DNA of 37,073 nt. It comes from Gammaproteobacteria bacterium (GTDB taxonomy: Bacteria; Pseudomonadota; Gammaproteobacteria; GCA-002705445; GCA-002716945). A program made the translations under genes and the position numbers. The stretch lies in assembly GCA_030835925.1 (NCBI GenBank), contig JAURQW010000004.1, positions 1 to 37,073 of the forward strand. Reading direction: 5' to 3'. Under the pieces are notes generated by a model. It was not told the DNA's origin. It did no database searches and saw only the letters and a list, made by a program, of their open reading frames with translations. Positions 8,681-32,149 of the stretch are shown piece after piece (within the stretch, counting starts at the first letter, position 1; each line of letters opens with the position of its first letter).

Positions 8681-9333
8681 AAAGTCATTCCATCATATAA
8701 TGTTAAAAGACAGTGGGAAACACTCTTATCAGTTGCTATATAGTTATTCAATTCTCTTATTGATCTTGTGTTATTTGTTTTATCAGAACTGTCCATTACT
8801 TTACCCTTCCATAATGTATTATCAATCAATATTGCCCCGCCTTTCCTAATAAGCTGTAATGATCTTTTGTAATATTCTAAATAGTTTTTCTTATCAGCAT
8901 CAATAAATATAAAGTCAAATGTATCATGCATCTTTTTCATTAGAAAGTCATCTAAAGAATCAATTGCATTACCAATTATTAATTCAATTTTATGATTACA
9001 ATTACTTTTAACCCAATATTCTTTTGCGATGTCATTAAACTCAGTCGAGTTTTCTAGAGCATAAAGCTTTCCACTTTCAGGTAGACCTTTAGCTATACAT
9101 ATTGCGCTATATCCTGTGAATACACCGATTTCTATACATTTATTAAATTGTCCTAATTGACATAATATTTCGATGAGAGATCCTTGAGTCTGACCAATCT
9201 GCATGACAGCTACATCACCTAGTAACTCTGTTTTGCTTCTTAATTCAGATAATATAGTATCTTTTTCATATCCTACTTGTTCTATGTATCCTTTAAGCTT
9301 TATAGGGTCTAGCGATATATTTTTATTCTTCAT
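8665..9333 (-). CDS. class I O-methyltransferase (caffeoyl-CoA O-methyltransferase-like)
   Basis: The 222-residue protein has the order of motifs of the small metal-dependent O-methyltransferases. These are the SAM-binding CIEIGVFTGYSAI at about residues 66-78, the acidic ALEN strand end, the metal-site region FIFIDADKKNYLEYY near residue 140, and IDNTLWKG downstream. Bacterial relatives usually act on small catechol-like substrates, and the substrate here cannot be told from sequence. The start overlaps the yceI stop in TAATG and the end overlaps trhO by 16 bases. Because it runs from the same end as the CDP-alcohol phosphatidyltransferase, it may or may not belong with the 10-15 kb biosynthetic set. 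Confidence 0.88.
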   Translation of the reverse strand: MKNKNISLDPIKLKGYIEQVGYEKDTILSELRSKTELLGDVAVMQIGQTQGSLIEILCQLGQFNKCIEIGVFTGYSAICIAKGLPESGKLYALENSTEFNDIAKEYWVKSNCNHKIELIIGNAIDSLDDFLMKKMHDTFDFIFIDADKKNYLEYYKRSLQLIRKGGAILIDNTLWKGKVMDSSDKTNNTRSIRELNNYIATDKSVSHCLLTLYDGMTLCIKK

Positions 9334-9923
9334 TATTCTTGTCTAGCTTCAAATTCAATTATTAATTCAATTTCATCACCGACTAAATTCTTTTTTACCG
9401 CATAATTCATTCCAAAATCTGACCTTTTAAATATAGCCGAGCCAGACACACCCATAACCATTGGCTTAGAAAGTCCAATTCGGAATGGATATGTATCAAT
9501 TTTATTAATTTTCACATTCAGTAATAAAGGTCTCGTTTTACCAAGCAATGTCAGATTACCTTTAATTTTTCCGGGGTTTAATTTTAGGTCATTTCTATCA
9601 GCCTTGAAAATCATAGTTGGAAAATTATTCGTATCTAAAAAATCAGGACTTTTGAGATGTGCGTCTCTTTTGTCATGATTCGTAAAGACGCTATCAGTAT
9701 CAATTATTATTTCTACTTCTGATACTATATTTGTACCTGCATTATATTTGAAAGAGCCACCAGCCTTTGTGAACATCCCTAAGGTGCGGGCATAACCAGC
9801 ATGATCAACTAAGAACCCAATACTTAAATGTGTTTCATCTAGTATGTATTTCTCAGTATCTGATGTAGCTATATTCGAAATAGAACAACAGATGGCAATG
9901 AGTATATATTTAACCTTTTTCAT
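9333..9923 (-). CDS. YceI family periplasmic protein
   Basis: YceI proteins are periplasmic lipocalin-like barrels that bind isoprenoid or other lipid chains. The 196-residue product has a signal peptide (about residues 1-21, MKKVKYILIAICCSISNIAT), then the family pattern YILDETHLSIGFLVDHAGY, FDTNNFPTMIFKA-like strands, GNLTLLGKTRPL and FKRSDFGMNY. It overlaps the upstream phosphatidyltransferase by 14 bases and the downstream methyltransferase by one. A lipid-binding partner next to a phospholipid synthase-type enzyme fits, but the ligand is unknown. Confidence 0.92.
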   Translation of the reverse strand: MKKVKYILIAICCSISNIATSDTEKYILDETHLSIGFLVDHAGYARTLGMFTKAGGSFKYNAGTNIVSEVEIIIDTDSVFTNHDKRDAHLKSPDFLDTNNFPTMIFKADRNDLKLNPGKIKGNLTLLGKTRPLLLNVKINKIDTYPFRIGLSKPMVMGVSGSAIFKRSDFGMNYAVKKNLVGDEIELIIEFEARQE

Positions 9924-10632
9924 ATTTATTCCTATATAACCAAATTATATCCTTAGAAAAAGAAAATGTAATTATAAAGAGTGCTAAATTTATTATAAAG
10001 TTGAATATATACTCATTAAAATATACCTCATGAGAGATTATCATTAATAGTGTTGTCATGACACATGCAGATTTTCTTAATATGCTATCTGGTAAAGTTT
10101 TTTTTAACCATGAATATTTAGTCATCAAAGCAATAAATATATATCGATATGCTGGAATCAGAAAAATATATAAACCTATATCCTTATTTATGTAAAGTGA
10201 TATTGATAGTACAAACATTAAAAAATTATCAGACTCTTGATCAAAAAGTTCTCCAAATTTGGAAGTGTCATTATACCTCCTAGCAATAAATCCATCTAAT
10301 CCATCTAAAAGTAATGAAATAAGCGCAAGAATTATAAAAGCACTTTCGTTATAAAAAATCCTGGAGATAGCTGCATCTATACTAGAGGTAATAGAGGCTG
10401 TCAGAAGAAGTATTGATATTGTAAGTCTTATGTATGTAATTTTGGAGGCCAAACTAAATTTTAGTAATTCTGTGGTAGAAAAAAATTTGAATATTAGGTA
10501 TGAAATAAACAAAAAAAATAATGAATTTTGTAGTAATATAAATACTGTTAACTGTTCTTTAAAAGTTAATAAAAGCAGTGAAACTGAAAAAAAATATGTA
10601 AAGGAAATTGTTATTAAATTATATTTACTCAT
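9910..10632 (-). CDS. CDP-alcohol phosphatidyltransferase family protein
   Basis: This integral membrane enzyme moves a phosphatidyl-type group from a CDP-linked donor to an alcohol. The 240-residue protein is multi-spanning and contains the complete signature D-x2-D-G-x2-A-R-x8-G-x3-D-x3-D at residues 110-135 (DGLDGFIARR through FDQESD). All catalytic aspartates are present, so it should be active. I chose ATG at 10632 over TTG at 10638. It starts 17 bases from the divergent dehydrogenase gene, and with yceI, the methyltransferase and trhO forms an overlapping minus-strand run. It does not look like the usual pgsA or pssA product, and donor and acceptor are unknown. Confidence 0.88.
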   Translation of the reverse strand: MSKYNLITISFTYFFSVSLLLLTFKEQLTVFILLQNSLFFLFISYLIFKFFSTTELLKFSLASKITYIRLTISILLLTASITSSIDAAISRIFYNESAFIILALISLLLDGLDGFIARRYNDTSKFGELFDQESDNFLMFVLSISLYINKDIGLYIFLIPAYRYIFIALMTKYSWLKKTLPDSILRKSACVMTTLLMIISHEVYFNEYIFNFIINLALFIITFSFSKDIIWLYRNKYEKG

Positions 10633-10649
10633 ATACAATTAATTAAATT

Positions 10650-11648
10650 ATGAAAAAACTTGTAGCCGAATCATTTTGGATCAAAAAACAAAACACTAGT
10701 TTTATTAAGAAACACCCTCTAAGTATACCTCAAAAAAACCAAGCTTTGATAAAAACTATATATAGTGGCATTAGTTATGGTACAGAAAAGATAGTTTATA
10801 CTGGTAGTGTGCCAAAAAATCAACGTCCTCTAATGAAATGCCCCTTTCAAGAAGGTGAATTTGGGGCTAATGTAAAATATGGTTATATAAATGTTGGGGA
10901 GGTTATAGAAGGATCTAAGGCATTTAAGAATAAATATGTATACACATTATTTCCTCATCAAACTTTATATACGATGGATGAATCAGATCTAACTATTATT
11001 CCAGAGTCGGTCCCTTTAAAAAGATGCTTGTTAACAGCAAATATGGAAACTGCTATCAATGCTATGTGGGATACCCTCCCATCATGTGGTGATAAAATAT
11101 TGATTATAGGTGCTGGTATTGTTGGTCTATTAACGGCATATTTGTTGAAAAAAATTCCTGGGGTAGAGATATTATTGGTTGATCAAGATAACAAAAAATC
11201 AAAGACTGCAAAAACATTTGGTATAGAATTTTCTCAGAAAATACCAAATTCATATAAAGCAAATATAATATATGAATGTTCGGGTAATCCATCTGTTATT
11301 AACGAACTTTCTACAAAACTAATGGAAGAGACAATAATATGTATATTAAGTTGGTATGGAAATGCTTCATCTAATGTTAAGTTTGGTACTGAATTTTTGT
11401 CTAAAAGAGCTAAAATTATTTTCTCTCAAGTATCCAAAGTTTCACATAATAGGAGTAAATACTGGAATAATAATGATAGAAAAAAACTTGCTCTAAGTCT
11501 ATTGGATAATGATAAATTAGATTTGTTGATAGAGAAAAGAATGGTGAATTTCTACGATTTACCTATTTTCTTTTCTGAAATAAAAAATAATAAAAACTTT
11601 TATTGTAAAGTTGTTGACTATGGAGTAAAAAAAAATGTACGAAGTTAA
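10650..11648 (+). CDS. medium-chain dehydrogenase/reductase-like protein lacking the usual zinc ligands
   Basis: The 332-residue protein has the two-domain layout of zinc alcohol dehydrogenases. A GroES-like N-terminal domain (about 1-130) includes YSGISYGTEKIVYTG, and a Rossmann domain has LIIGAGIVGLLTAYLL (about residues 151-166) followed by LLVDQD. The usual catalytic cysteine position (GxCxxD) reads GISYGTE, and no four-cysteine structural zinc lobe is seen. It is closest in feel to the BchC and sorbitol-dehydrogenase-like branch. It opens the cluster and overlaps the next gene by 14 bases. Redox role and substrate are unknown. Confidence 0.8.
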   Translation: MKKLVAESFWIKKQNTSFIKKHPLSIPQKNQALIKTIYSGISYGTEKIVYTGSVPKNQRPLMKCPFQEGEFGANVKYGYINVGEVIEGSKAFKNKYVYTLFPHQTLYTMDESDLTIIPESVPLKRCLLTANMETAINAMWDTLPSCGDKILIIGAGIVGLLTAYLLKKIPGVEILLVDQDNKKSKTAKTFGIEFSQKIPNSYKANIIYECSGNPSVINELSTKLMEETIICILSWYGNASSNVKFGTEFLSKRAKIIFSQVSKVSHNRSKYWNNNDRKKLALSLLDNDKLDLLIEKRMVNFYDLPIFFSEIKNNKNFYCKVVDYGVKKNVRS

Positions 11649-12027
11649 AGTGAGGGATAATTTATTTATAGCACATAGCCTTAACAACGAATTCTTTGGT
11701 CCAGCTAAAAATTTACATGGAGCCACATATGTGATCGATCTTATAGTAAGCAGTAACAAGCTTTCTAGCATGAATGTTGTTATAGATATTGGACTCGCAT
11801 CTAAATTACTTAAAGAATGTATTAACAAATATAATTATAAGAATCTTGATGAGGTAGACTCTTTAAAAGAAGTTATTACAACTACAGAATTTTTAGCATA
11901 TCAACTAACAAATGATTTTATTGAAAAACTAACTAAAGAAGAAACTAATATATCTAAAATATATAGTATCAAAATGATACTCAATGAATCCCATGTAGCT
12001 TCTGCCTCTTATGAAAAAATAATATAA
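11635..12027 (+). CDS. 6-pyruvoyl-tetrahydropterin synthase/QueD homologue with altered active site
   Basis: The 130-residue product has the T-fold family pattern: FIAHSLN with His14, LHGATY with His28, VVIDIG, TTTEFLA and the late acidic motif LNESHVAS (Glu118, His120). Against the family, position 30 is alanine where the third zinc histidine of HGH should be. Position 24 is alanine where the catalytic cysteine sits four residues before the histidine. The normal QueD in this same window (31781-32149) keeps both. So this copy probably does not do standard 6-carboxytetrahydropterin synthesis. It lies between the dehydrogenase (14-base overlap) and the glycosyltransferase (4-base gap). Confidence 0.82.
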   Translation: MYEVKVRDNLFIAHSLNNEFFGPAKNLHGATYVIDLIVSSNKLSSMNVVIDIGLASKLLKECINKYNYKNLDEVDSLKEVITTTEFLAYQLTNDFIEKLTKEETNISKIYSIKMILNESHVASASYEKII

Positions 12028-12031
12028 ATGA

Positions 12032-13018
12032 ATGAAAAAACTATTTTTTATTTTTCCCGAATTTGAAGGTGCCATAACTGGTGGAACACTATATGACTAT
12101 GAAGTATGTAAATATTTAAAAAAGCTTCATGTGCCTGCGAAAAAAATAATTGTTTCAAGTTCAATTACTCAGATTAAACTATCAAGTTTGGTTAATAACT
12201 TGCCCAAGAAATCAATCATTCTTATTGATGGTTATTTAGCTAATAGAATATCTTTTATATTTAATAAAAATATACATATATTAGTTCATCATCCATGTTG
12301 TCTAGAAAAAAGGGAGGGTAAAATGTCAAACTTAAATTTATACTTTAATGAAAAAAGAGCTTTTAGTAACTCTAAATCAATAATAACTGTTAGTTTTTAT
12401 ATGAAAAAAGTAATAAACTCATTATTAGATAGAATTGTTAAAACAGAAGTTGCATATCCGGGTATTGATGATAAATATTATTCAAATAAAACGAACTTAA
12501 ATTCTAAAAATATACTAGTAGTAGGCAATGTAATAGAGCGAAAAGGTTATGACATTCTGATTGAATCTCTATCAAAAGTTAAACATACTTGGCATCTTAA
12601 TATTATTGGCAAGTATTCAAAAAATGATATTTATTATCTTAAACTCATTAACCAAATAGAAAAATATAAGCTATCAGAGAATATAACGTTTTTAGGGAAT
12701 ATTTCTGATGATGCCAAGATGAAGTATATGCTCAACTCAAAGATATTCGTATTACCTACCTCTTATGAGGGTTTTGGGATCTCCCTTGTTGAAGCTTGTG
12801 CGTTGGGTATGAATGTTATCACTAGTGATCTGCCAGTCTTAAAAGAAGCTTTACAAGGTGGAAAAGTTACTTTCTTCCCCAAGGATGATAGTAAAAAATT
12901 AGCAAAGGTAATTGAATATAGTTTATTATCAGAACCACATATTAGTGATAGTAAACTTAGATATTATAATTGGAATGCTACTGCTAAAATTTTTAGAAGG
13001 ACATTATATGCAAGCTAA
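12032..13018 (+). CDS. glycosyltransferase family 4-type (GT-B) protein
   Basis: The 328-residue product looks like a retaining GT-B glycosyltransferase with a shortened N-terminal half. The C-terminal Rossmann domain is clear: VAYPGIDDKYY hinge, ILVVGNVIERKGYDIL with the glycosyl-donor Arg-Lys pair, ITFLGNISDDAK, and the E-x7-E motif SYEGFGISLVE (Glu246 and Glu254). No signal peptide is present, so it acts in the cytoplasm or on the inner face of the membrane. Its 3' end overlaps the methyltransferase by 11 bases. Sugar and acceptor are unknown. Confidence 0.9.
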   Translation: MKKLFFIFPEFEGAITGGTLYDYEVCKYLKKLHVPAKKIIVSSSITQIKLSSLVNNLPKKSIILIDGYLANRISFIFNKNIHILVHHPCCLEKREGKMSNLNLYFNEKRAFSNSKSIITVSFYMKKVINSLLDRIVKTEVAYPGIDDKYYSNKTNLNSKNILVVGNVIERKGYDILIESLSKVKHTWHLNIIGKYSKNDIYYLKLINQIEKYKLSENITFLGNISDDAKMKYMLNSKIFVLPTSYEGFGISLVEACALGMNVITSDLPVLKEALQGGKVTFFPKDDSKKLAKVIEYSLLSEPHISDSKLRYYNWNATAKIFRRTLYAS

Positions 13019-13880
13019 TAAATTTACCACCACTTGGATTAATTTGAGAGAATCATATGATATGTTATCGAGAAGTAATTTGCTTCAAAATTTGTATAAA
13101 AATAATAAAATGAACTTAAAAAAAGTCATAGACCTTGGAGGTGGCAATGGTTCTTTTCTTAGATGGTGTCACTACAAAAATATTATATATGATGATTTCC
13201 TAATTGTTGATAATGATGAAGCATTGCTGAAAAGCTTTTATCCTAGAACAAAAAGCTATTTATCAACGATGTCTTTATCTCTTGTCAAAGATAATATGAT
13301 GTCATATAGAATTCAGAGTCTAAAAAAGAATAAAGATGGTTTTATCACATTAAAAAAGCAAGATCTTTATAAATCTATTGATATTATCAATGATTACAAT
13401 CTAGTCAGTTTTTCTGCTGTGTCAGATCTACTGTCTAAAAAATTTATTAAATGTTTATTTGATAAAATTGATAAAGGCACTAATCTATATTTTTCTATAT
13501 GTTTTGATGGGAGAGTTAAATGGAAGAATAAGAATAAACATGATAAGTATATAGTTTCAATGTTCAATCAACATCAGAAACAAGAAAAAACAACAGGGGT
13601 TGCTTTGGGTTTGAATAGCATAAACTTCATCAAGAGTCTCTCCAAAAAAAATGATTATAAAATTTATATAGCTGATTCATCATGGTCTGTTGACTCATAT
13701 GATAATGATTCAAGGATATTTCAAAAAGCATATCTTAGTACAATTTATAAACCTTTAAAAAAATTTGAATTGATTGATCAAGATATATTAGAAGATTGGT
13801 TAAGATCTAAACAAATTGATATAGAAAGTAAAAACAGTAATTTGGTGGTTGGCCATAAAGATATATTGATCGAGACATAA
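13008..13880 (+). CDS. class I SAM-dependent methyltransferase
   Basis: The 290-residue protein has the glycine-rich SAM site KVIDLGGGNGSFLRW at about residues 39-53 followed by an acidic end of strand two (FLIVDND). The rest is poorly conserved. I chose ATG 13008, which has AGAAGG seven bases upstream. An in-frame ATG at 12912 would lie deep inside the glycosyltransferase gene. The stop and the next start share TAATG. In this position it probably methylates an intermediate of the cluster. Confidence 0.85.
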   Translation: MQANKFTTTWINLRESYDMLSRSNLLQNLYKNNKMNLKKVIDLGGGNGSFLRWCHYKNIIYDDFLIVDNDEALLKSFYPRTKSYLSTMSLSLVKDNMMSYRIQSLKKNKDGFITLKKQDLYKSIDIINDYNLVSFSAVSDLLSKKFIKCLFDKIDKGTNLYFSICFDGRVKWKNKNKHDKYIVSMFNQHQKQEKTTGVALGLNSINFIKSLSKKNDYKIYIADSSWSVDSYDNDSRIFQKAYLSTIYKPLKKFELIDQDILEDWLRSKQIDIESKNSNLVVGHKDILIET

Positions 13881-14773
13881 TGAAAATAATAGATATATGT
13901 AGATATATAATTTCTTTAGGATTAATTTACATTCTTTTCATCAATTATGGTAAAGATATAATAAACACAATTAAACTAGTTAATATTGATTATATAATAT
14001 TAATTATTTTCATAAGTCTAATACAATATATATTATCTGCATATAGATGGAAGTATATTTCTAAATATACGGACCTTAATATTAGTTTCATTAACTCAAT
14101 AAAATTTTATTATATTTCAACATTCATGAATAATATTTTGCCAGGTGGTATAATGGGTGATATTTTTAGAATTTATCATCATGTTGACGATAAAAAGGAG
14201 ATCTTTAAAATAGGAAGGTCCTTTCAATCAGTTGTATATGAGAGATTATCCGGCCAGCTAATGCTCTTATCATTTTTTATCTTATCCTTGGGCTTATATT
14301 TTATTATTCATCAGAAATTTATTGCTTTTTCTTATTTATTTTTACCTTTGATTGCCGCTTTCTATTTCCTGAAATATGTCTTTAATAATAAATTAAGAAA
14401 ATATATAAGAAGTAAGCACTATGGAAATAACTTCCTAACTGTTTTTACAGGAGAGGTTTTCTGGAGACATACAGTATTGTCTTTTTTTGTAATGATGTCT
14501 TATATTTTTATTTATATAATATCTGCAGTTTCTCTTGGTGTGAACATAGATTATTTTTCATTTTTAGTTTTCACTCCAATAATACTATTCTCTATGACTT
14601 TGCCTGTTAGTATTGGTGGTTGGGGAGTTAGAGAGTTTGCAGCACTATTAATATCTTTTCTATTGGGTTTATCTGCATCAGTAAGTATAAGTGTTGCTAT
14701 AATGTATGGGATGTTAAATCTCATCTGTTCTTTGCCTGGCTTATACTTTTTATTAAAACTTAAATCAAGATAG
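13880..14773 (+). CDS. YbhN/UPF0104-type membrane protein (lysylphosphatidylglycerol synthase TM-domain family)
   Basis: The 297-residue protein has about seven to eight membrane helices. It carries the family's two landmark loops: NNILPGGIMGDIFRIYH at residues 84-100 and PVSIGGWGVREFAALL near residue 240. In MprF the same fold flips an aminoacylated lipid, and stand-alone members often sit in glycolipid or glycan clusters and are thought to move or present lipid-linked products. Its start overlaps the methyltransferase stop, and its stop region overlaps the convergent RibD-like gene by nine bases. Confidence 0.88.
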   Translation: MKIIDICRYIISLGLIYILFINYGKDIINTIKLVNIDYIILIIFISLIQYILSAYRWKYISKYTDLNISFINSIKFYYISTFMNNILPGGIMGDIFRIYHHVDDKKEIFKIGRSFQSVVYERLSGQLMLLSFFILSLGLYFIIHQKFIAFSYLFLPLIAAFYFLKYVFNNKLRKYIRSKHYGNNFLTVFTGEVFWRHTVLSFFVMMSYIFIYIISAVSLGVNIDYFSFLVFTPIILFSMTLPVSIGGWGVREFAALLISFLLGLSASVSISVAIMYGMLNLICSLPGLYFLLKLKSR

Positions 14774-15628
14774 TTTGATATCACAAAGTATATCTTGACC
14801 CATTTTGGAATATTTAGTTTTATGACATTTAGCTTCATCTAGCGATTGTTTTGTTTTTGTTATAAAGCTGGGTCTTCCTTTACCAAGAATACTTGGACTA
14901 ATGCACAAGTGAAGCCTATTTAAAATGTTACTGTTATAGAAATCAGAAACTGTTACTCCGCCACCCTCTATAAATATTATTTTTTTCCTTAACTTGTTTA
15001 GTAGCAAGATAATATCTTGCTCATTAAATCGACCTTTATCCAAAGGCAGCTGGAAAATATTATCTTTATTTGTTTTTATTTTATCACCTATGATCTTATA
15101 ACCATTAGAATCAGAATTTTTGAAAACGTTATACTTATTAGATAATCTATTATCTTTATCTATAATTATTCTCATCGGACTTGGTCCTTTGATTAATCTA
15201 GTGGTTAGTTTAGGATTATCTAGTGCTACAGTTTTATATCCTACGATTATAACATCAGAGATTGCCCTGATCATATGAATATGAGTGAGGTTTTCTCTGG
15301 AACTAATATATTTTGATTCACCAGAATCAGTTGCAATAAACCCGTCAAGTGTTTGTGCCAAATGAGCTATAAAAAATGGCTTATGGTGGTTGTTAAATAT
15401 AATAGGAAGAAATGTTGAAAATAGCATTTCATTATAATCATCTATTATAAAATTACACTTAGATATAGTCTCAGAATTTCTATCATATACTAGGATATAT
15501 TTTACCCCTCTAATAGTTTTTTCTATAGATATCAGGTAGGAGTGTTCCTGTTCATCATATACTGTTTCTTTTGCCGCTAAAACTAGTGACCATGAAGATT
15601 TCTTTGTTATACTAAGTTTATTAACCAT
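14765..15628 (-). CDS. RibD C-terminal/dihydrofolate-reductase-like protein
   Basis: The 287-residue product carries, from about residue 84, the fold of the RibD reductase domain, which reduces the ribosyl group of the pyrimidine intermediate of riboflavin synthesis. Motifs are HLAQTLDGFIAT, SDVIIVGYKTVALDNPKLTTR, IIFIEGGGVTVSDF and ILGKGRPSF. There is no deaminase domain, and the first 80 residues resemble nothing I recognise. A stand-alone reductase without ribA, ribB, ribE or ribH nearby, next to a pterin-synthase homologue, suggests a pyrimidine- or pteridine-type substrate outside normal riboflavin synthesis. It is convergent with the YbhN-type gene and 11 bases from the divergent 15640 gene. 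Confidence 0.85.
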   Translation of the reverse strand: MVNKLSITKKSSWSLVLAAKETVYDEQEHSYLISIEKTIRGVKYILVYDRNSETISKCNFIIDDYNEMLFSTFLPIIFNNHHKPFFIAHLAQTLDGFIATDSGESKYISSRENLTHIHMIRAISDVIIVGYKTVALDNPKLTTRLIKGPSPMRIIIDKDNRLSNKYNVFKNSDSNGYKIIGDKIKTNKDNIFQLPLDKGRFNEQDIILLLNKLRKKIIFIEGGGVTVSDFYNSNILNRLHLCISPSILGKGRPSFITKTKQSLDEAKCHKTKYSKMGQDILCDIKLS

Positions 15629-26535: not shown

Positions 26536-27792
26536 CTAGCTGATAATTTCATCTAACAGATTATTAATATCCATTTCAGATTTAGATTCCGAGGACCTTT
26601 TTTTAAATATTACGGTGTTATTGTTGGATTCATTCTTACCTATTATCACAATATTGGGTATACCGATTAATTCCCAGTCTTTAATCTTTTTACCTAAATT
26701 GGCATCTCGATCATCATAAATGGTCTCAATATCCTTTTCAATGAACGATTCATATACCGATTCACAGTATGCCCTAACATCTGAATTTTTGTGTCCATCA
26801 ATTTCAATAATTACAGTATTGAATGGAGTTATTGATGCAGGCCATTTTATACCTTTGTCATCATGCAATTGTTCTATTGCCGCCGCTACAATTCTCGTCA
26901 CACCTATCCCGTAGCAACCCATAAACATGTCTACAGTTTTAGAATCTTTAGTGGTTACTTTTGCTTTCATTGTCTCTGAATATTTTTGACCAAGCTTAAA
27001 AATATGCCCAACCTCTATTCCTTTTTTATGAGTTAAATTAGTTTTTTTGATTAATGCCTCTAAATCATCTTCACCATACTTAACTTTTGCTATTTCTATA
27101 TTCATGCCTTTTAGTTGATCATCTAATAATAAGTCATCTTCACCTGTATCCGCTATAACATGAAATTCATTAGATTCATTCCCCCCAATATTGCCACTAT
27201 CAGCATCGACAACAGTAAAGTCTAACATTAGATTTTTAAAAATATTATTATATGCAGTTTTATACACCTCATATGCTTCATCTAAAGATTGTTGATTTGC
27301 ATGAAAAGAGTAAGCATCTTTCATAATAAATTCTCTTGCCCTCATCACACCAAATCTTGGCCTGATTTCATCTCTAAATTTAGTTGAAATCTGAAATAAA
27401 TTTATTGGCAATTGTTTGTAGCTTGATACATCCTTTCTGATTAAATCAGTGATAACTTCTTCAAAAGTTGGACCCAAACAAAAATCTCTTTGATGCCTGT
27501 CAGTAAACCTGAGCAGCTCAGGCCCATATTGATCCCATCTACCTGATTCTTGCCATAGTTCAGAGGGTTGAACAGACGGCATTAATATTTCACTGCAACC
27601 AATCTTTTCTAGTTCTATTCTAATGATATCTTCAATTTTTTTTATAACTCTTAACCCAAGAGGCAGCCATGAATATTGTCCTGATGAGAGTTTTCTTATC
27701 ATTCCGGATCTTATCATCAGCTTATGACTAATGACTTCGGCATCAGCCGGAGTATCTTTTAAAGTGAATATTGGAAAATGTGAAACTCTCAT
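26536..27792 (-). CDS. proS: proline-tRNA ligase, short form without the INS editing domain
   Basis: This is a class II aminoacyl-tRNA synthetase. The 418-residue product has motif 2 (KFRDEIRPRFGVMRAREF), the motif 3 region (GCYGIGVTRIVAAAIEQ) and a C-terminal anticodon-binding domain. The usual bacterial enzyme has about 570 residues, with an INS editing domain of about 180 residues between motifs 2 and 3. Here only about 50 residues separate the GNESNEFHVIADTGEDD segment from the GIEVGHIFKLG segment. The short form is common in alphaproteobacteria. Such an organism may need a free-standing Ala-tRNA(Pro) deacylase. Confidence 0.95.
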   Translation of the reverse strand: MRVSHFPIFTLKDTPADAEVISHKLMIRSGMIRKLSSGQYSWLPLGLRVIKKIEDIIRIELEKIGCSEILMPSVQPSELWQESGRWDQYGPELLRFTDRHQRDFCLGPTFEEVITDLIRKDVSSYKQLPINLFQISTKFRDEIRPRFGVMRAREFIMKDAYSFHANQQSLDEAYEVYKTAYNNIFKNLMLDFTVVDADSGNIGGNESNEFHVIADTGEDDLLLDDQLKGMNIEIAKVKYGEDDLEALIKKTNLTHKKGIEVGHIFKLGQKYSETMKAKVTTKDSKTVDMFMGCYGIGVTRIVAAAIEQLHDDKGIKWPASITPFNTVIIEIDGHKNSDVRAYCESVYESFIEKDIETIYDDRDANLGKKIKDWELIGIPNIVIIGKNESNNNTVIFKKRSSESKSEMDINNLLDEIIS

Positions 27793-30959: not shown

Positions 30960-31778
30960 TTAATCTTTAACTTGATGGATTTGAGCATATGCAGAGTGAT
31001 TATGTATAGATTCAAAATTTTCCGATTCAACAACATATTCTAATACTCTTTTATCTTCAGCAAAATGTGTAGCTATATCTCTAACCATATCTTCAACAAA
31101 TTTTGGATTATCATATGCTAGTTCTGTTACATGTTTTTCATCAGGTCTCTTAAGAAGAGCATACAGTTCTGAAGATGCTTCTTTCTCAACAATATCAATT
31201 ATCTCTTCAATCCACATGAAATCATTAATTGTTGCTGTTACAGTCACATGTGATCTTTGATTATGTGCTCCATATGCAGATATTTTTTTTGAGCATGGAC
31301 ATAAACTTGTGACAGGAACTAAAACTTTAACTTTTAAGTTTGATATACCTTTGTTTGCCTCACCAATAAAAGTCACCGTGTAGTCTAGCAAGCTTTTTAC
31401 TTTTGATTCTGGAGCAGTTTTATTTATAAAATATGGAAAAGTCATTTCAACATGACCCGATTCCGCCTCTAATAAAGTCAACATTTCTTCGATCATTGAT
31501 TTAAAGGTGTCTACTGTTATTTGTTCCTCATGGTTATTTAGAATATGAACAAATCTAGACATATGCGTACCTTTGAGGTTGTGTGGTAAATTTACATACA
31601 TATTAAAACTAGCTACAGTTGTTTGATCTTGTCCTGATCTTTGTTTGATTACCATCGGATGCAGAATATCTTTAATTCCAACTTTGTTGATGGGCAAGTT
31701 CCTTGTATCTTCCAATCCCTGAGTGTCAGGTAGATTACTTTTATTTATTGATTTCATTTTTTTTTTATTAGTTGCCAT
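30960..31778 (-). CDS. folE2: GTP cyclohydrolase FolE2
   Basis: FolE2 makes 7,8-dihydroneopterin triphosphate from GTP and replaces the zinc-dependent FolE. The 272-residue product has the family's [20 protein letters not shown] with the conserved cysteine, the RSHVTVT segment and the C-terminal [13 protein letters not shown]. It feeds folate and also the queD pathway just upstream in the same operon (two-base gap). It is the last gene of the six-gene minus-strand operon. Confidence 0.97.
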
Positions 31779-31780
31779 TA

Positions 31781-32149
31781 TTACACCGTATATGTTACTG
31801 CTGATTTATCTGTTTCCCATAATTTAATCGATTTCACAATAATCTTATCATTATTTATTAACTTCGTAAGCTCTATATGAATATATTTTGCTATATTTTC
31901 CGCTGTTGGATTAATTTTTTTAAAAGCTGTCAGATCATTCAAAAACCTATGATCTAGTTTATCTACAACCTTATTAGTCATATTTCTTATTTTTTTAAAG
32001 TCGATTACCATTCCGATATTATCTAGTTTATTACCTGAAACTTCAACTTCAACTTTCCAATTGTGACCATGCATTCTTTTGCATGGACCCTCGTGCCCAT
32101 TTAAGATATGTGCTGATGAAAATTCAACAAATGTTGTGAGTGTATAAAT
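31781..32149 (-). CDS. queD: 6-carboxy-5,6,7,8-tetrahydropterin synthase, probable AUU start
   Basis: QueD turns dihydroneopterin triphosphate into carboxytetrahydropterin for 7-deazaguanine (queuosine) synthesis. The frame read from 32149 gives 122 residues with the complete active site: His14 in SSAHIL, Cys23 in GPCKRMHGH, His27 and His29, and the late WETDKSAV. An internal ATG (32074) would remove the cysteine and the first zinc histidine. No ATG, GTG or TTG exists in frame between that point and an upstream stop inside dxs. ATT at 32149 lies seven bases after AAGGGA and one base after the dxs stop, so it is the likely start. Confidence 0.88.

Follow-up and report, generated by a model that had tools for sequence, protein, structure and literature searches.

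The 37,073-nucleotide stretch analysed here (the window; contig JAURQW010000004.1 of assembly GCA_030835925.1, from a Gammaproteobacteria bacterium) carries a compact gene cluster that encodes a PTPS-like T-fold protein, a BchC-like dehydrogenase, a GT4 glycosyltransferase, a methyltransferase and a RibD-like reductase, which we call the core, together with a CDP-alcohol phosphatidyltransferase and YbhN-type and YceI-family proteins. The locus almost certainly encodes a single biosynthetic pathway. With moderate confidence, its product is proposed to be a glycosylated and methylated 2-amino-4-oxo-pyrimidine or pterin, which here is plausibly attached to a phospholipid and then moved by a flippase to the other face of the inner membrane.

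Conservation of the gene set

The initial annotation of the window had made the idea of one pathway depend on these genes also being neighbours in other genomes, and this was strongly borne out. A scan with the family alignment yielded at least 582 relatives, and the best 80 loci include Pseudomonadota, Bacteroidota, Actinomycetota, Gemmatimonadota, Acidobacteriota, Myxococcota and Neomarinimicrobiota. To avoid picking genomes by similarity, an even sample of Pseudomonadota comprising 242 good genomes was also drawn. The PTPS-like gene is present in 18 of them, with the dehydrogenase and the glycosyltransferase nearby at all 18 loci and the methyltransferase and the RibD-like gene at 16 each. 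Accessory neighbours at these loci are the CDP-alcohol transferase, YbhN and GTP cyclohydrolase II (7 each) and FkbM (4), with YceI (3), creatininase (2) and sulfatase-like genes (2) being rarer. The core order is mostly kept across distant phyla, far beyond what chance would give. At three Bacteroidota loci (L072, L074 and L107), the dehydrogenase and PTPS-like genes are separated by an FkbM methyltransferase gene and a sulfotransferase gene that are read from the other strand.

The set is also found on plasmids of Streptomyces, Rhizobium and Candidatus Thiodictyon, and a Rhodobacteraceae plasmid carries a smaller set without the glycosyltransferase. Co-occurrence extends in part to a Haloarcula plasmid (L163:213-9335), which holds creatininase, CDP-alcohol transferase, dehydrogenase, PTPS-like, GT4 and methyltransferase genes. 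The PTPS-like protein from Haloarcula is an outlying relative, since its sequence is divergent and an HxH-like motif (HSHH) is retained.

The divergences of the PTPS-like protein, dehydrogenase, glycosyltransferase and RibD-like protein correlate pairwise with rho of 0.71-0.82, or 0.60-0.82 when the methyltransferase is included, host kinship contributing to these values. In Marinobacter, Vreelandella and several others, the glycosyltransferase and the methyltransferase are joined in one stop-free open reading frame (ORF). The window genome (918 kb in 27 contigs; completeness 83%) is a member of a marine, streamlined family with assemblies of about 1 Mb, in which the gene order is identical across the 17 regions read, one of which (L039) starts within the PTPS-like gene. 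This gene is present in all 11 family genomes of at least 90% completeness, and its retention in every good assembly of such small size argues for an important product.

Origin of the ring

The PTPS-like protein had been described as a degenerate PTPS/QueD homologue, yet it belongs to a conserved, altered subfamily and is not a decaying copy. In an alignment of 41 sequences from several phyla, mean column identity is 62%, and His14, Ser15, Phe21-Gly22, Ala24, His28-Gly29, Thr31-Tyr32, Asp51, Asn70-Leu71-Asp72, Thr84-Glu85 and Glu118 are invariant. In comparison with canonical PTPS/QueD, the catalytic Cys is replaced by Ala24 and the Asp-His pair by Asn67-Tyr68, and HGH has become HGA, the second His, a zinc ligand, being Ala30 in the window protein and Thr or Val in some homologues. 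The Glu residues at the PT-x-E and C-terminal W-E-T positions are retained, Glu118 occupying the position that anchors the pterin ring. Hence, the protein does not present the residues that define PTPS-I, II and III of COG0720 (Cys or the PTPS-III Glu, three zinc His, Asp-His), and it scores far below the cut-offs of the QueD equivalog (35.7 bits against 89.25) and 6PTHBS (30.9 against 125.5) models. A pterin synthase in the ordinary sense is therefore unsupported, the catalytic triad being gone.

The nearest solved relative is SCO6650 of Streptomyces coelicolor (3d7j), deposited as uncharacterised. It belongs to the same subfamily, with a full-length profile match of 195 bits, and LHG[AVT]TY, FGxA, NLD, TTTE and ESH stand where PTPS has its catalytic residues; AHS, FGPAQ, LHGAT, NYxNLD and LHESH are common to SCO6650 and the window protein. 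The AlphaFold2 model of the latter (pLDDT 94) aligns to 3d7j with a TM-score of 0.95, against about 0.7-0.8 for most ordinary PTPS/QueD chains. The work of Spoonamore in 2008 on the SCO6650 structure reportedly found neither zinc nor the triad nor PTPS activity, and described a pocket suited to a pterin-like substrate; the residue changes observed in the present alignment are in line with this. In the viral contigs searched, no relative of the PTPS-like protein was found.

The RibD-like protein is a member of RibD_C, with conserved motifs TLDGxIA, VGxxTxxxDxPxLTxR and EGGG. Its nearest solved structures, 2azn and 6p8c, are of the 2,5-diamino-6-ribosylamino-pyrimidinone 5'-phosphate reductase type, and by profile the family is closest to the archaeal-type diaminoribosylaminopyrimidinone phosphate reductases, whose substrate is predicted for it. 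Given that it has no deaminase domain, the 2-amino group, which would be the target of a PTPS-type Glu anchor, should persist. The dehydrogenase has its catalytic-Cys region replaced by S-G-I-S-x-G-T-E, with S42 and G44-T45-E46 invariant in 25 homologues; at 52.9 bits against a TIGR01202 cut-off of 291.25, it is a relative of BchC and not a member. Since the window genome has its own QueD (with Cys, HGHN and Asp-His all present, and a FolE2, named by sequence, adjoining), a full RibD, and GTP cyclohydrolase II in an ORF of RibBA length on contig C23, the PTPS-like and RibD-like copies of the cluster are not the housekeeping enzymes. The separate RibD also rules out the RibD-like protein as a riboflavin enzyme. 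The window thus carries two PTPS-family paralogues, which differ in function.

Genes that accompany the core elsewhere point to the substrate. Among the 65 loci with full flanks, on which the co-occurrence counts rest, GTP cyclohydrolase II (PF00925) is found in 25 and a creatininase-family amidohydrolase (PF02633) in 18, these being the commonest extra neighbours of clear metabolic meaning. In Saprospiraceae and in one genome each of Catalimonadaceae and Neomarinimicrobiota, cyclohydrolase II, RibD-like, dehydrogenase and PTPS-like genes, mostly then followed by the glycosyltransferase, lie in this order on one strand. The clustered cyclohydrolases keep the zinc cysteines and catalytic motifs; the Streptomyces copy, which a creatininase gene adjoins, has Met for the Tyr of the RAY motif, which is Tyr in the other copies compared. 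In Spoonamore's 2006 work, this change reportedly makes SCO6655 stop at a formylated intermediate (FAPy), which a creatininase-type deformylase could finish by analogy with archaeal ArfB. The cluster creatininase matches PF02633 with 202.9 bits, its nearest NCBIfam model, MftE, falling below cut-off. Creatininase was rejected as a universal member because it is missing from the window family. These two genes lend independent support to the derivation from GTP that the initial annotation had suggested, but not to a pterin rather than a pyrimidine ring. We consider it likely that the product is built on a GTP-derived ring, and probable that entry is by the GTP cyclohydrolase II route and not by FolE.

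Several observations weigh against the pathway as proposed. No dedicated cyclohydrolase II and no creatininase were found in the window family, and the 7 occurrences each of the CDP-alcohol gene and cyclohydrolase II in the 18-locus sample indicate that these are accessory or located elsewhere. The divergence of cyclohydrolase II correlates weakly with that of the core (rho 0.27-0.46), as if it had been recruited repeatedly. FolE lies beside the cluster in 3 of the 91 loci over which it was counted, adjoining the CDP-alcohol gene in L087 and L113. Moreover, were ring closure the sole goal, FolE would yield a dihydropterin in one step.

The FolE neighbours also speak for an unlikely alternative, which starts from a dihydropterin made by FolE. 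In it, the PTPS-like protein would work on dihydroneopterin phosphates, the RibD-like protein would be a dihydrofolate reductase (DHFR)-type pterin reductase, and the product would be an ordinary tetrahydropterin glycoside of the kind made by cyanobacteria and Chlorobium. Dihydroneopterin triphosphate is the substrate of PTPS relatives, the window has FolE2, and RibD_C and DHFR share a fold, the RibD-like profile reaching DHFR-like proteins weakly and the RibD-like Rv2671 with 84.5 bits. However, the same profile lies far nearer the pyrimidine-phosphate reductases (164.6 and 150.8 bits, whereas the best-scoring dihydrofolate reductase chain reaches 34.9), cyclohydrolase II is beside the cluster much more often than FolE, and the PTPS triad is missing throughout the subfamily. 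The glycosyltransferase is also no nearer to the characterised tetrahydrobiopterin glucosyltransferases (54.7 bits) than to many other GT4 structures, which score higher. Less likely still is a ring that does not derive from GTP, in which case a locus for a glycolipid or polysaccharide would have recruited the PTPS and RibD folds to bind or reduce another heterocycle or a sugar nucleotide. Both T-folds and DHFR folds are known to have taken on other substrates, and loci for lipids and polysaccharides can likewise contain GT4, methyltransferase, FkbM, sulfatase-like and CDP-alcohol genes; yet FkbM and sulfatase-like genes are accessory here to a nearly invariant core, the anchor Glu and the RibD_C catalytic motifs are retained, and cyclohydrolase II, rarely FolE, has been independently recruited beside that same core. 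Chance adjacency of unrelated genes with a decaying QueD copy, for which nothing speaks but gene spacing as tight as any compact genome would show, is refuted by the order kept across phyla, the fusions and the covarying divergence and presence, and has practically no probability left.

Membrane genes and the proposed pathway

The CDP-alcohol transferase has the signature DxxDGxxARxxxxxxxxGxxxDxxxD, both in the window sequence and in a 20-member alignment, where D112, D115-G116, G129, D133 and D137 are invariant and A119-R120 nearly so. Its best NCBIfam matches, PgsA (40.5 bits, cut-off 109.1) and archaetidylinositol-phosphate synthase, are both far below cut-off. In the full-flank set, YbhN is present in 23 loci, all 23 of which have the CDP-alcohol transferase (Fisher 1e-8, shared ancestry being ignored), and the CDP-alcohol gene is also present at 17 of the 18 loci with YceI and at 14 of the 15 with a sulfatase-like gene. 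Fusions link the same partners: a single ORF at L084:8418-10016 (+) encodes YbhN at its N-terminal side and the CDP-alcohol transferase at its C-terminal side, one at L102:4777-6198 (+), from a metagenome-assembled genome, encodes the CDP-alcohol transferase, a signal-like stretch and a YceI domain, and in L069, L071 and L119 the transferase is fused to a sulfatase-like domain. Fusions are here stop-to-stop frames from assemblies, some of them metagenome-assembled, so the single cases L084 and L102 could be errors; the sulfatase-like fusions and those of glycosyltransferase and methyltransferase recur across loci. No description of a CDP-alcohol transferase fused to YbhN, YceI or a sulfatase-like domain was found in the open literature searched.

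This covariation and these fusions suggest a unit acting on the CDP-alcohol product. They lend support to the earlier lipid and transport idea, though not to actual attachment of a lipid; for the window lineage, we regard lipid attachment as an even matter. Lipid attachment cannot hold for every version of the cluster, since the CDP-alcohol gene is not nearby in 29 of the 65 loci. Some of these loci have cytochrome b561 in its stead, and lineages without the gene may use the head group unlinked. Cytochrome b561 was seen near the cluster in L160, L162, L170, L173, L177, L178, L180, L181, L077 and L090, mostly loci without the CDP-alcohol transferase, which hints at a redox-active product.

The following scheme infers each reaction from the computed gene set, conservation, residue changes, covariation and fusions. 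GTP cyclohydrolase II would convert GTP to 2,5-diamino-6-ribosylamino-pyrimidinone phosphate, here by the housekeeping RibBA and elsewhere by dedicated copies. The RibD-like reductase would then give the ribitylamino compound with its 2-amino group kept, and the BchC-like dehydrogenase would oxidise a side-chain hydroxyl. The PTPS-like protein, holding the 2-amino-4-oxo ring by Glu118, would carry out the following reaction on the ring or side chain, perhaps the closing of a second ring. If the ribityl chain bore a 2'-ketone, the compound would be identical to the open-chain FolE intermediate that precedes pterin closure, and the PTPS-like protein could then conceivably be a cyclase, which we think doubtful; side-chain oxidation followed by ring closure is likewise an improbable scheme as a whole. 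Glycosylation by the GT4 enzyme and methylation by the methyltransferase would follow, their sequence being taken solely from gene order and the fusion. The CDP-alcohol transferase would join the product to a lipid through a phosphate, YbhN would flip it, and YceI would carry or bind it.

As to acceptors, the profiles and fold search pointed to none in particular for either the glycosyltransferase or the methyltransferase. The latter has no Pfam match above cut-off; its AlphaFold2 model (pLDDT 93.5) retrieves small-molecule methyltransferases with Foldseek. Taken furthest, the scheme would be a widespread route to a membrane-anchored, GTP-derived redox or signalling cofactor. This would be a pteridine or pyrimidine that carries a sugar and a methyl group, is linked to a phospholipid by the CDP-alcohol transferase and is flipped by YbhN, with YceI or cytochrome b561 handling it afterwards, its ring being closed without FolE by the reductase, the dehydrogenase and a PTPS-like cyclase. 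We offer this as a speculation that is unlikely to hold in full.

Known systems and locus layout

The kinds of enzyme are all known, and their combination is undescribed in the literature searched; no paper describing the cluster was found in the open literature searched. The 3d7j record names no pathway, partners or product for SCO6650. In another Streptomyces, a homologue of SCO6650 type lies amid the same gene set minus the RibD-like gene, and the cluster thus provides a pathway context for that solved structure. With QueD and PTPS-I to III (COG0720) the window protein has the T-fold and the second-half Glu residues in common, at about 28% identity to the window QueD. It differs in that the Cys and the Asp-His pair are replaced, as is one zinc His of the three, and genes for queuosine, biopterin and folate are not recurrent neighbours. 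A review of COG0720 describes PTPS-I to III and mentions IV, and a term search of its text returned no glycosyltransferase or RibD (PMC5041015).

The CDP-alcohol transferase has its catalytic signature in common with the PgsA and phosphatidylinositol-phosphate type transferases, and YbhN falls within the membrane domain family of LPG synthase, as do MprF/YbhN-type flippases. The archaeal riboflavin route opens with a GTP cyclohydrolase, a creatininase-family amidohydrolase and a deaminase-free pyrimidine reductase. The same three kinds of enzyme of this archaeal and fungal-type branch (ArfA, ArfB, ArfC; RIB7) occur with the cluster, but here they adjoin PTPS-like, dehydrogenase, glycosyltransferase and methyltransferase genes, and riboflavin is made separately, as checked in the window genome. 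Cyanopterin has a GTP-derived ring that is glycosylated and methylated, the rings of cyanopterin and limipterin coming from FolE and a true PTPS. The cyanobacterial and Chlorobium routes to pterin glycosides are not known to involve RibD-like, BchC-like or CDP-alcohol genes, and the cluster glycosyltransferase is not specifically close to the pteridine glycosyltransferases. Pterin glycosides such as cyanopterin and limipterin, and a glycosyltransferase enzyme, have been described for cyanobacteria and Chlorobium (PMC13259868, PMC5683033).

About 1 in 13 sampled Pseudomonadota species carries the PTPS-like gene, always beside the dehydrogenase and glycosyltransferase, and the plasmid records looked up label it 6-carboxytetrahydropterin synthase, a queuosine enzyme. 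Given this frequency, these fixed neighbours and this label, many such genes probably carry a wrong annotation, and a common metabolite may have been overlooked. According to a 2026 review, pterins have no known efflux system and their crossing of membranes is unexplained (PMC13259868); a lipid-linked, flipped head group derived from GTP, if true, would be one answer. The carriers include cultured Marinobacter, Vreelandella, Variovorax, Streptomyces and Rhizobium, so the product can be looked for directly.

The coordinates of the genes are presented in the table below.

Table. Genes of the cluster and the ordinary QueD, in window coordinates
Feature	Position	Strand	Evidence or remark
YceI-family periplasmic lipid-binding-type protein	9333..9923	-	PF04264, 122.6 bits
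CDP-alcohol phosphatidyltransferase family enzyme	9910..10638	-	PF01066 (CDP-OH_P_transf), 60.3 bits; alternative ATG at 10632
BchC-like medium-chain dehydrogenase/reductase (MDR) family dehydrogenase	10650..11648	+	TIGR01202 BchC, 52.9 bits, below cut-off
PTPS-like T-fold protein, SCO6650-type subfamily	11635..12027	+	Pfam PTPS, 63.7 bits
GT4 (GT-B) glycosyltransferase	12032..13018	+	PF00534, 107.3 bits
Class I S-adenosylmethionine-dependent methyltransferase	13008..13880	+	homologues match Methyltransf_25; AlphaFold2 model and Foldseek
YbhN/LPG_synthase_TM flippase-like membrane protein	13880..14773	+	PF03706, 126.9 bits; TIGR00374 above cut-off
RibD_C pyrimidine reductase without deaminase domain (RibDx)	14765..15628	-	PF01872, 106.5 bits
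Ordinary QueD	31787-32140	-	canonical motifs; FolE2 alongside (pair spans 30960-32140)

All seven genes of the initial annotation were recovered from ORFs and Pfam matches, overlapping or tightly packed. With start and stop codons checked, the dehydrogenase stop and PTPS-like start overlap by 14 bp, the glycosyltransferase and methyltransferase by 11 bp, and the methyltransferase and YbhN by 1 bp, and the convergent ends of the YbhN and RibD-like genes overlap by 9 bp. The YceI gene, which overlaps the CDP-alcohol transferase gene by 14 bp on the same strand, belongs to the set and is probably co-transcribed with it. The divergent CDP-alcohol transferase and dehydrogenase genes start about 11-17 bp apart (10632-10650), so their promoters must sit within the opposing genes; this gap is similarly short in some close relatives. 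A promoter scan gave a number of sites not above that of shuffles, no terminator was found, and a search of the window for RNAs and riboswitches returned two tRNAs only.

HisI was rejected as a pathway member, since it is the sole PRA-CH gene in the window-family genomes searched, and hence serves histidine synthesis, and it is missing from distant loci. Anti-phage defence was also set aside, PADLOC models matching none of the seven proteins. Elsewhere in the window, a prolyl-tRNA synthetase-like ORF (26536-27792, minus strand) encodes 418 aa, short for a gammaproteobacterial ProS, and judging from this length alone it probably lacks the editing insertion.

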